A stretch of DNA of 42,650 nucleotides, from positions 1,386,389 through 1,429,038 of the forward strand of contig CP070777.1 of the NCBI GenBank assembly GCA_020346225.1, written 5' to 3'. The notes below the pieces were generated by a model. It was not told where the DNA came from. It saw only the letters and a program-made list of their open reading frames with translations, and did not search any database. The stretch's first letter is position 1, and each line of letters begins with the position of its first letter. Source of the stretch: Candidatus Zixiibacteriota bacterium. GTDB lineage: Bacteria; Zixibacteria; MSB-5A5; GN15; FEB-12. The position numbers were made by a program, and so were the translations under genes. Shown here in pieces: positions 30,112-35,168 of this stretch.

Positions 30112-30699
30112 TCATTTAAGCACCGATTTTATCATATAGAAATACTTGACGCCGTAGTCAACGCCCGTTGCCACCGTTATCACCGCCGTTATCCACAGGA
30201 CCAGGTTGAAGTAGAAGTAGTAATCGAAATCCAGAAAGGCCGCCTGGTCGTTGCCGTAATAGGTCAGGGCATTCTTGAGCGCTATGTAGGCCAGGACGAC
30301 GCCGACAATGCTCAGCTGCAGGAAGGTTTTGACCTTGGCCCAGCGGGTGGGGGATATGACCACGCCGCGATAGGCGGCCAGCAGGCGCAGACCGGTGATC
30401 GAGAACTCGCGGCCGATGATGAGTATCACCGGCAGGGGAGACACGTAGCGAAGGGCGATGAACGAGATGAGGGCCGACGAAACGAGGATTTTGTCGGCCA
30501 GAGGGTCCATGAATTTTCCGAAGCCGGTGATGACGCCGTACTTGCGCGCGTAGTAGCCGTCGGCCAGGTCGGTCAGGGCCGCGATCACGAACAGCCCCAG
30601 GGCAACCATCTGCATGGGGAAATTGTCCACCAGAAAGAAGAACATGAAAATAGGAGCGATGATTATCCTGAGAAGCGTGAGTTTGTTGGGCGTGTTCAT
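30112..30699 (-). CDS. pgsA: CDP-diacylglycerol--glycerol-3-phosphate 3-phosphatidyltransferase
   Basis: PgsA joins CDP-diacylglycerol and glycerol-3-P to phosphatidylglycerol phosphate in the membrane. The 195-aa protein has the full CDP-alcohol phosphotransferase signature: Asp44, Asp47-Gly48, Ala51-Arg52, Gly61, Asp65 and Asp69 (TDLADGYYAR...GKFMDPLADK). Several hydrophobic segments follow. The ATG at 30699 lies 8 nt after a possible -10 and lacks a Shine-Dalgarno. Upstream (30775-30896) is a small promoter-to-terminator unit that might be an attenuator for this operon. Confidence 0.95.
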   Translation of the reverse strand: MNTPNKLTLLRIIIAPIFMFFFLVDNFPMQMVALGLFVIAALTDLADGYYARKYGVITGFGKFMDPLADKILVSSALISFIALRYVSPLPVILIIGREFSITGLRLLAAYRGVVISPTRWAKVKTFLQLSIVGVVLAYIALKNALTYYGNDQAAFLDFDYYFYFNLVLWITAVITVATGVDYGVKYFYMIKSVLK

Positions 30700-30707
30700 T
30701 GGATAAC

Positions 30708-30736
30708 AAGGTATGCCGGGTGGTAAGAGGTGTCAA
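30708..30736 (-). promoter_or_regulatory. Possible pgsA promoter, leaderless arrangement
   Basis: Minus strand: TTGACA (30736-30731), 17-bp spacer and TACCTT (30713-30708). The -35 is perfect but the -10 is weak. The -10 ends 8 nt before the pgsA ATG, the same distance as at yceD. Confidence 0.5.
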
Positions 30737-30774: not shown

Positions 30775-30863
30775 ACAAAAAAGAACCCAGACAGGTAACG
30801 AAGGCCTGCCTGGGCGGACTAGATTAGGTAATCCACAGAAAGAGTAACACTTTCCGATTGCGT
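30775..30863 (-). ncRNA. Candidate small RNA or attenuator leader (about 88 nt)
   Basis: A complete small transcription unit on the minus strand. After the promoter at 30896-30868, the predicted RNA runs from about 30863 to a terminator hairpin (30814-30786, 10-bp stem with one G-U pair) and a TTCTTTTTT tract. The body contains GAAAG/CUUUC and a GAUUA-cc-UAAUC palindrome whose arms overlap a possible AAUC/GAUU pairing, so alternative folds exist. A GTG-initiated ORF of eight codons (30850-30824) is the only possible peptide. No known family is recognised. It could be a free sRNA or a leader controlling pgsA (start 76 bp further on). Confidence 0.55.
30786..30814 (-). terminator. Terminator of the candidate small RNA
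   Basis: Minus strand CCCAGGCAGG and CCTGTCTGGG form a 10-bp stem with one G-U pair and a 9-nt loop, followed by TTCTTTTTT (30785-30777). Confidence 0.85.
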
Positions 30864-30867
30864 TAAA

Positions 30868-30896
30868 ATAATAAGGCCAAGGGCCGATTTTGTCAA
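30868..30896 (-). promoter_or_regulatory. Promoter of the candidate small RNA
   Basis: Minus strand: perfect TTGACA (30896-30891), 17-bp spacer and TATTAT (30873-30868). It is among the best promoter matches in the window, with no conventional gene directly behind it. Confidence 0.75.
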
Positions 30897-31499: not shown

Positions 31500-34400
31500 T
31501 TGAAAGTCCAACGATATTTTACGCGCCAGGGGGAGTCGCCTTATAGCCGCATAAATTTCGTCAAGCGCACCTCACAGATAAAGAATCCCGATGGTTCCAC
31601 GGTCTTCAAGCTCGATGATATCGAAGTTCCCGAGCCGTGGTCGCAGGTGGCCGTTGATATCCTGGCCCAGAAGTACTTCCGCAAGGCGGGCGTTCCCCGG
31701 ACCGACGCCGGGAGCGAGGCGGTTCTGGATGAGAACGGCGATCCCGTTCTGGGCGGAGAGACCGATGCCCGTCAGGTGTTCCACCGGATGGCCGACTGCT
31801 GGCGCCACTGGGGGCAGAAGCACGGCTATTTTGACAGCGAGGAAGAGGCAAAGAGTTTCTACGATGAAGTGTGTTACATGCTGGCGGTTCAGATAGCCGC
31901 GCCCAACTCCCCGCAGTGGTTCAATACCGGTCTTTATCACGTCTATGGCATAAGTGGTGTTTCCAACGGCCACTTTTATGTCGATCCTGACACGCACAAC
32001 CTGACCCAGGCGCAGAACGCCTACGAGCATCCCCAGCCGCATGCCTGCTTCATTCAGTCGGTGGCCGATGATCTGGTCAACGACGGCGGCATCATGGATC
32101 TGTGGGTGCGCGAGGCGCGGTTGTTCAAATACGGTTCGGGCACGGGCACCAATTTTTCCAACATTCGCGGGTGCAAAGAGCCGCTTTCGGGCGGCGGCAA
32201 CTCGTCGGGGTTGATGTCCTTCTTGCGTATCGGTGATCGCGCCGCCGGCGCTATCAAGTCCGGCGGGACCACCCGTCGTGCCGCCAAAATGGTTTCTCTC
32301 GATCTGGACCATCCCGATATCGTGGAGTTCGTCGACTGGAAAGTGACCGAGGAGCAGAAGGTGGCGGCGCTGGTGGCCGGTTCGAAGATTATCCGTCAGC
32401 AGCTCAAGGAGCTTTTCGAGGCCGCCCGCGTGGCCGGTGACAACGGTAATTCCCAGTTCGAAACCGACCCGGAGAAGAATGTCCGGCTCAAGGATGCCTT
32501 AAGCAACGCCCGGCGTTGCTGTGTTCCGCCGGCTTATATCAAGAAGGTCCTGGATCTGGCCGCTCAGGGTATCGATGATATTGAATTCGTCGAGCTTGAC
32601 ACCAACTGGGAGAGCGAGGCCTACCTGACCGTCTCGGGGCAGAACTCCAACAATTCGGTGCGCATTCCCAACCGGTTTTTCGAAAAACTCAAGGGCGGCC
32701 AGGACTGGGAGCTGCGCCGGCGAACGGACGGAAAAATATCATCGGCCGTTCCGGCCGCGGATTTGTGGGAGAAGGTCTGTTATTCGGCGTGGTCGTGCGC
32801 CGACCCGGGGGTGCAGTTCGATACCACCATCAACGAGTGGCACACCTGCCCGGAGGACGGCCGTATCAATGCCTCCAACCCCTGTTCGGAATACATGTTC
32901 CTCGACGATACGGCGTGCAATTTGGCCTCGATCAACCTGGTCAAGTTTCTGGGCGACGACGGCCGCTTCGATATCGAGGGGTTTATGCACGCCGTTCGCA
33001 TCTGGACGGTAGTGTTGGAGATTTCGGTGCTGATGGCGTCCTATCCGTCGCCGGCCATCGCCCAGAACAGTTTCGACTTCCGCACGCTGGGGCTGGGTTT
33101 CGCCAATCTGGGTACGCTGCTTATGCGCCTCGGCGTCCCCTATGATTCGCCCGAAGGTTACGCCTGGTGCGGCGCCCTGGCCTCGCTTCTGACCGGCGAA
33201 GCTTACGTGACCTCGTCGGAGATGGCGCGCGAACTGGGGCCGTTCACCGCGTATTACCGCAACCGCGAGCATATGCTGCGCGTCATTCGCAATCACCGTC
33301 GCGCCGCTTACAACGCGGACAAGTCCGAGTACGAAGGTTTGACGATTAAGCCTCAGGGTATCAATCCCAATTATATTCCGGAGGAGCTGGTTAGCGCCGT
33401 CCGCCTGGTCTGGGACCGGGCCCTCGACCTGGGTGAAGTGTACGGTTTTCGCAACGCCCAGGCGACGGTGGTGGCTCCGACCGGCACGATCGGGCTGGTT
33501 ATGGACTGTGATACGACCGGTATCGAGCCCGATTTTGCCCTGGTAAAGTTCAAGAAACTGGCCGGTGGCGGGTATTTCAAGATCATCAACAATTCCGTTC
33601 CCATCGCCTTGCGAAAGCTCGGGTATACCGATCGGGAGATCGAAGACATTATCCTCTATGCCACCGGCCATAAAACTCTCAAACAGGCTCCGTTCATCAA
33701 TCACGAGTCGCTCCGGGCCAAGGGTTTCGGGCAAGCGGAACTGGAGAAGATCGAAGAAAACCTGGGCCACGTCTTCGATATCACGTTCGCCTTCAACAGG
33801 CATACGATCGGCGAAGAATTCCTCAGGGACACGCTGGGCCTGTCGGAGGAAGTTTACGAAAACTGGAACTTCAACCTCCTGCGTGAGCTGGGTTTCACCC
33901 GGGAGCAGATCGAGGCGGCCAATGAGTTCTGCTGCGGTACCATGACGCTCGAGGGCTCGCCGCACCTGGCCGATAAACATCTGCCGATCTTCGACTGCGC
34001 CAACCGTTGCGGCCGAAAGGGCCGGCGCTTTATCAGGTTCGAGTCGCACATTCGCATGATGGCGGTGGCCCAGCCGTTCATCTCGGGGGCCATCTCGAAG
34101 ACCATTAACATGCCCTCTGAAGCTACCGTGGAGGATGTCAAGAAGGCCTACCGCCTGGCCTGGGAGACGATGAACAAAGCCATCGCCATCTACCGGGACG
34201 GTTCCAAGCTGAGCCAGCCGCTGAGCGCGGCGCTTTTCGACGACACCGAGGCGGAGGAGGGCTTCTCGGTGGAGAAGGCCTCGGAAAGAATGGCCCAGCG
34301 GGTGGTGTACCGCTATATCGCCAAGCGGCGCAAACTGCCCAACCGCCGCGGCGGCTACACCCAGAAGGCCGTTGTGGGCGGCCACAAGGTGTATCTGCGC

Positions 34401-35168
34401 ACCGGCGAGTACAGCGACGGGACGCTGGGAGAGATATTCCTCGACATGCATCGCGAGGGCGCGGCTTTCCGTTCTCTCATGAACAGCTTCGCTATCGCCG
34501 TTTCGCTCGGCCTGCAGCACGGTGTGCCGCTGGAGGAGTTTGTCGAGGCGTTCTTGTTCAGCCGCTTCGAGCCGAACGGCCTGGTCAGCGGCAATAAGTC
34601 CATCAAGATGGCCACCTCGATTATCGATTACATCTTCCGGGAACTGGCCATTTCCTACCTGGGACGTCATGACCTGGCCCATGTGTCGGAAGAGGATCTG
34701 CTGGGGGACACGGTGGGCAAGCCGGGCGAGGAGTCGACGGAGTTTGAAGATGAAGAGCCGGCTGATCCCGCGATCACCGGCCAGGTAACCGCGGCCAGCC
34801 GCACGCCCGATGATATCCATTCGAGCCATCTGAAACTCGATCTGGGCGGCGATTGTGGCGGCAACGGCCACGGGGAATCGCAGTCATTGAACAGCAGTCA
34901 GACAGGAGGCAAGGTCAATGATCAATCGCTGGAGCACCCGCTTACGCCTCCGACAGCTGCGGCCACAGAGGCGACGCTTGAGTATGCCGCAGCGTCGGTC
35001 AAGAGAGTTATCGACGAAACCGGCCAGAGGCTCTTTGAAAAAATCAGAGCGGCCCGGCTGAAAGGGTACGAAGGCGATATGTGTGCCGAGTGCGGGCAGT
35101 TCACCATGGTCCGCAACGGCACCTGCCTTAAGTGTGATACCTGTGGCGCCACCAGCGGCTGCAGCTGA
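31500..35168 (+). CDS. nrdJ: Adenosylcobalamin-dependent (class II) ribonucleoside-diphosphate reductase
   Basis: This enzyme reduces ribonucleotides to deoxyribonucleotides using a radical from coenzyme B12, with or without oxygen. The 1222-aa protein has the reductase barrel: [16 protein letters not shown], the NPCSE loop (460-464) followed by [16 protein letters not shown], and [28 protein letters not shown]. After about residue 900 comes the TSCPD-type region ([12 protein letters not shown]...[22 protein letters not shown]). A Cys-rich tail (CAECG...[14 protein letters not shown]) probably serves as redox relay and/or zinc site. The start is TTG at 31500, with a perfect AGGAGGT at 31489-31495. 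Tandem NrdR-like boxes lie about 150 bp upstream. Confidence 0.96.

Follow-up and report, generated by a model that had tools for sequence, protein, structure and literature searches.

The small-RNA gene lies on the minus strand of the window (the whole 42,650-nt stretch of Candidatus Zixiibacteriota DNA that was analysed). In transcriptional order it consists of TTGACA, 17 bp, TATTAT, six bases, GCAATCGGAAAGTGTTACTCTTTCTGTGGATTACCTAATCTAGTCCG, a 10-bp terminator stem (30814–30805 paired with 30795–30786) and TTCTTTTTT; there is one copy per genome. Families are designated f1 (the family of the window), f2 and f3 (two further families of the same order) and f4 (a fourth family). Features in window coordinates:

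30891–30896, minus strand: −35 element TTGACA of the small-RNA promoter; present in all 30 listed f1 loci and in most f2 and f3 homologues.
30868–30873, minus strand: −10 element TATTAT, 17-bp spacer; TA...T mostly retained in relatives.
30777–30861, minus strand: 85-nt small RNA, predicted +1 (G) through the end of the T-tract; homologues by BLASTN and covariance model.
30816–30861, minus strand: ultraconserved body, nt 1–46; the same in 49 of 50 distinct f1 loci.
30836–30856, minus strand: hairpin 1, CGGAAAG/CUUUCUG, loop UGUUACU; invariant in f1.
30816–30834, minus strand: hairpin 2, GGAUUA/UAGUCC in this genome; weak.
30786–30814, minus strand: terminator stem-loop CCCAGGCAGG, 9-nt loop, CCTGTCTGGG; compensatory changes.
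30777–30785, minus strand: terminator tail TTCTTTTTT; T tract also in aligned homologues.
30112–30699, minus strand: pgsA, a lipid-synthesis gene that heads pgsA-pgpA-cinA-thpR and mostly lies next downstream; context, outside the unit.
30708–30736, minus strand: separate pgsA promoter TTGACA-17-TACCTT; its −10 element ends 8 nt before the ATG.

Promoter, terminator and fold

The promoter of the initial annotation (TTGACA, 17-bp spacer, TATTAT) was found as described and scored 11 of 12 consensus bases in the promoter scan; 5 promoter-like sites were counted vs 2.9 expected in shuffles, and the match alone is within chance expectation. The unit is significant because its conservation sets in at the predicted start site and gives out within the terminator. 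That a promoter and a terminator without function met here by chance, a reading for which the chance-level promoter would speak, is virtually without probability, being refuted by the conservation and by the covariation of the terminator.

The 10-bp terminator stem with its T tail, annotated from the same letters, is CCCAGGCAGG/CCTGTCTGGG followed by TTCTTTTTT; compensatory changes, the check suggested at the time, were seen at 4 of the 10 pairs, and 96.5% of cells were paired vs 25–56% in slid controls. The unit is compact as claimed, at 85 nt instead of about 88 nt, and the RNA folds better than shuffles (z −3.7).

The GAAAG/CUUUC hairpin proposed earlier is real in f1, and no covariation was obtained for it there because it is invariant; it coexists with hairpin 2 in the minimum-energy fold, so that the mutual exclusivity of the hairpins was not borne out. 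The GAUUA/UAAUC hairpin was not confirmed: only 2 nt would be left for its loop, and its C occurs, as a substitution, in this genome alone; in the other f1 members hairpin 2 is GGAU/GUCC (loop UACCUAAUAUC; weak). Each of the three families builds its 5' hairpin differently: CGGAAAG pairs with CUUUCUG in f1; GCAACG pairs with UGUUGC in f2, and GAAAG is left in the loop; f3 has one long hairpin, GAAAGG to CCUUUC, the inner stem of which varies among the three members.

No conserved open reading frame was found in the small RNA, stops and indels separating the families, in agreement with the annotation of no credible protein. A small peptide was rejected: f2 reads GUG UUG CAG and then UAG, terminator loop lengths vary, and no frame survives.

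Distribution

Conservation in close relatives, on which the initial annotation had staked its independent small RNA, was found. BLASTN (191-bp query) gave strong homologues in nearly every f1 genome, and the covariance model placed the small RNA in 49 of 54, with promoter, body, terminator and tail conserved; most of the remaining five are fragmented, incomplete assemblies. Diverged homologues were present in 5 of 7 f2 and 3 of 4 f3 genomes (E <1e-13, three-family second model); the f2 and f3 sequences were inside this second model, and the counts rest on the first model and inspection. With the second model nothing convincing was obtained in f4 (0 of 15) or in the rest of the phylum; weak matches in f4 and elsewhere (G039, G022, G044, G002 and extra ones in G040) were rejected as unrelated terminators without the body.

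The 34-nt core was located on 40 contigs among 84,980 species genomes scanned, all of them MAGs, labelled Zixiibacteriota, GN15, FCB group, Calditrichota/Calditrichaeota or merely 'bacterium'. No viral contig carried the 30-nt core; a phage or mobile origin was rejected on this count and on the single copy and stable place of the gene. MAG contigs G028 C171, G026 C138, G071 C274, L100 and L111 end about 100 bases or nearer from the small RNA, as if assemblers broke at the 46-mer common to co-occurring species.

Neither the window nor the RNA locus of five relatives scored above the gathering threshold of any Rfam 15 family, and the earlier remark that no known RNA family is matched holds for this release; the RNA is a new family, with no homologue detected in Rfam.

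The features of an autonomous intergenic sRNA are present: its own upstream promoter (TTGACA-17-TANNNT, conserved in relatives with unchanged distance to the RNA), a Rho-independent terminator and no conserved ORF. Comparison of the genomes establishes the unit as a predicted independent, single-copy sRNA gene, confined to three families within a single order of Zixibacteria; the 85-nt RNA would be made from a strong sigma-70-type promoter to its own intrinsic terminator and would not be transcribed as part of pgsA.

Conservation and divergence

Across 47 distinct loci, nt 1–46 carry 1.99 bits per position; flanks: 0.14 bits upstream (−79 to −50), 0.07 downstream. Conservation begins at the predicted start site and stops within the terminator, and aligned f1 RNAs are identical across almost the whole body. 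The sole exception among the 50 distinct f1 contexts is this genome, with A40C and C42A (window 30822 and 30820), which turn AUCGUC into CUAGUC in a segment retained even in the other families; the two changes are either real or an assembly error. Third codon positions of pgsA are 41% identical on average among f1 loci carrying the small RNA. Because the first 46 nt are identical while the neighbouring genes drifted far, the small RNA must do something important; bacterial sRNAs are not usually so invariant where synonymous divergence is saturated.

The f2 version reads GCAACGGAAAGTGTTGCAGTAGTGGATTCTTCCTAACATCGTCATCCCAGG..., and the f3 version reads GCAATCGGAAAG...GGATTACCTTTCATCGTCCTCCCAGG...; promoter layout and terminator are in both as in f1. 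Common to f1, f2 and f3 are GCAA(U)CGGAAAG, GGRUU, CCU and AUCGUC, the last retained though the surrounding fold differs. Because the three families fold differently and yet share this sequence, the bases that matter can be told apart from the pairings that do not.

Relation to pgsA

The pgsA promoter of the window consists of TTGACA (30736–30731) and TACCTT (30713–30708), with the ATG at 30699. Such a promoter beyond the small-RNA terminator had already been suspected; it was found as TTGACA-17-TANNTT, after the terminator where the RNA is present, in 48 of 49 loci, and also in ten f4 genomes without the small RNA. Between its end and the ATG lie ca. 7–11 nt at nearly every f1, f3 or f4 locus and ca. 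21–23 nt in f2; since it ends so close to the ATG, the pgsA mRNA is probably leaderless or nearly so, a predicted property conserved across the order.

In most f1, f2 and f3 loci the pgsA-pgpA-cinA-thpR operon is downstream of the RNA and co-directional with it, often 160–500 nt from the RNA start, as would suit an attenuation leader (the other possibility raised in the initial annotation) or a different cis element acting on pgsA-pgpA. The conserved linkage to pgsA that was to be looked for is, however, not constant: in many genomes other genes intervene downstream of an unchanged RNA; convergent genes follow it in L063, L115 and L116; the operon is inverted relative to it in L094; and a two-gene insert between RNA and pgsA recurs (L089, L098, L101, L114, L096, L105), the first gene encoding a protein with a DRRKYVWTYQ motif and a signal peptide-like start, the second a small putative lipoprotein with a CxxCH motif, cytochrome c-like. 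An attenuator is very improbable: the RNA is unchanged before the cytochrome-like pair, convergent genes or the inverted operon (L089, L098, L115, L116, L094), and pgsA occurs without it in f4. A leader of pgsA is unsupported because the gene has its own conserved promoter and the downstream context varies; neither dependence on read-through nor constant linkage was found.

Upstream of the small RNA a large ribonucleotide-reductase gene (nrdJ type; 31500–35168, plus strand, in the window) is present in most f1 genomes; its orientation varies, either divergent (start ca. 600 nt off) or co-directional (ending at least ca. 170 nt before the RNA). The nrdJ-type block seems to have been flipped while the small RNA stayed put.

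Proposed mode of action

A trans-acting, base-pairing sRNA that would work without Hfq, perhaps with an RRM-type protein or CsrA as helper, is the reading preferred here, with confidence about evenly poised between acceptance and doubt. The RNA would be made constitutively at a high level, as the consensus −35 element and its own terminator suggest, and would act in trans on several mRNAs; pairing would proceed through the invariant exposed stretches, i.e., the loop around UUACCUAAUAUC and, ahead of the terminator, the AUCGUC segment, an RRM-type protein assisting in Hfq's place. Several partners would impose many constraints, and every base of the body could be fixed for this proposed reason. 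Hfq, expected in the host of an Hfq-dependent sRNA, was detected (PF17209) in 0 of 51 genomes vs 5 of 14 controls; an RRM_1 protein was present in 39 of 41 genomes, the number of RRM_1 matches reaching 12 in a genome. The base-pairing sRNAs GibS and FopS of Bacteroides have an RRM protein, RbpB, as their partner (PMC11697453).

Several observations count against pairing. The change of AUCGUC to CUAGUC in this genome would fall in one of the predicted pairing stretches. A typical seed has only 7–12 invariant nt, and 46 invariant nt exceed what simple seed pairing requires. Targets: no 19-nt complementary site was found in the genus beyond the RNA gene itself, save one near-match in one genome only; a long antisense target was rejected, none being common in the genus save the RNA gene itself; among the start regions of the window genes the best duplex (z −1.8) was not convincingly better than shuffles, and nothing was obtained for pgsA. 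A 16S gene was not found in the own genome.

That 46 nt hardly vary where divergence is saturated, the single copy per genome and the consensus −35 element in all listed f1 loci would also fit a housekeeping or global regulatory RNA peculiar to this lineage, either a structured protein particle or an RNA touching a near-invariant partner (rRNA, tRNA, RNA polymerase). It would be a small particle, nearly all 46 bases of which contact protein or the invariant partner, the core being kept and the hairpin rebuilt differently in each family. Rfam's 6S model finds no 6S RNA in 13 genomes, which is in line with this reading; 6S RNA as the identity of the unit was itself rejected on the same negative search and on the length, the small RNA being far too short. 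A housekeeping role is nonetheless rather unlikely: the RNA has only 85 nt and a weak second hairpin; the fold differs (GAAAG/CUUUC in f1, GCAACG/UGUUGC in f2, long GAAAGG/CCUUUC in f3); nothing resembles the long 6S hairpin; and the RNA is absent from the sister family f4 and so is not essential to the phylum.

A CsrA sponge or decoy, in which two conserved GGA motifs bind a CsrA dimer and free mRNAs from CsrA, is distinctly unlikely. CsrA was found in 48 of 51 genomes, Hfq in none. The two GGAs of f1 (nt 7–9 and 28–30) are 18 nt apart; those of f2 and of the f3 member L058 are 15 nt apart, and L060, without the second GGA, yet has another at nt 12–14. CsrA can bridge two sites 10–63 nt apart, with an optimum of ca. 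18 nt or more, and it binds sRNAs that have no more than two GGAs, e.g., McaS (PMC7652899). On the other side, the f1 contexts are UCGGA and GUGGA, not ANGGA, and CsrA occurs in f4, where the RNA is missing. CsrA prefers GGA in loops; in f1 the first GGA is part of the 7-bp stem, in f3 it is likewise within a stem or adjacent to one, and multiple ANGGA motifs in loops were not found. Two GGAs, moreover, would not demand 46 invariant bases. The sponge is kept as a rival only, because of the f1 flanks and the paired first GGA.

In the literature no sRNA from Zixibacteria was found described. Zixibacteria, an uncultured group, are represented here by assembled genomes only. The family offers a precise single-copy locus with known (predicted) ends and is therefore searchable at once in metatranscriptomes.

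Comparison with known RNA systems

The best sub-threshold Rfam matches, NsiR1, sroE and mmgR, are built in broadly the same way, with short hairpins and a terminator ending in a U tail; their scores (13.7–15.9 bits) are far under the cut-offs (39–51), and the resemblance is at chance level. Attenuation and riboswitch leaders likewise combine a promoter, a short structured RNA and a terminator, usually before a biosynthetic operon; unlike them, the present RNA is followed by an operon with its own promoter past the terminator and persists where the operon is not downstream.

McaS-type sRNAs that bind CsrA resemble it in two GGAs at a spacing that CsrA can bridge, CsrA being present in Zixibacteria; they differ in that the GGAs of f1 are not ANGGA and the first is paired, and there is no homology.

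With the preferred base-pairing reading the comparison is to GibS and FopS. FopS is multicopy and has a single-stranded 5' part, whereas the Zixibacteria RNA is single copy, of other sequence, and has a hairpin at its 5' end and a body that is invariant throughout a whole family. The likeness is that GibS and FopS are each a compact sRNA transcribed from a promoter of its own to a Rho-independent terminator, an RRM protein being the sRNA partner in Bacteroides (PMC11697453); in Zixibacteria, as in that setting, Hfq is undetected and RRM_1 proteins are present.
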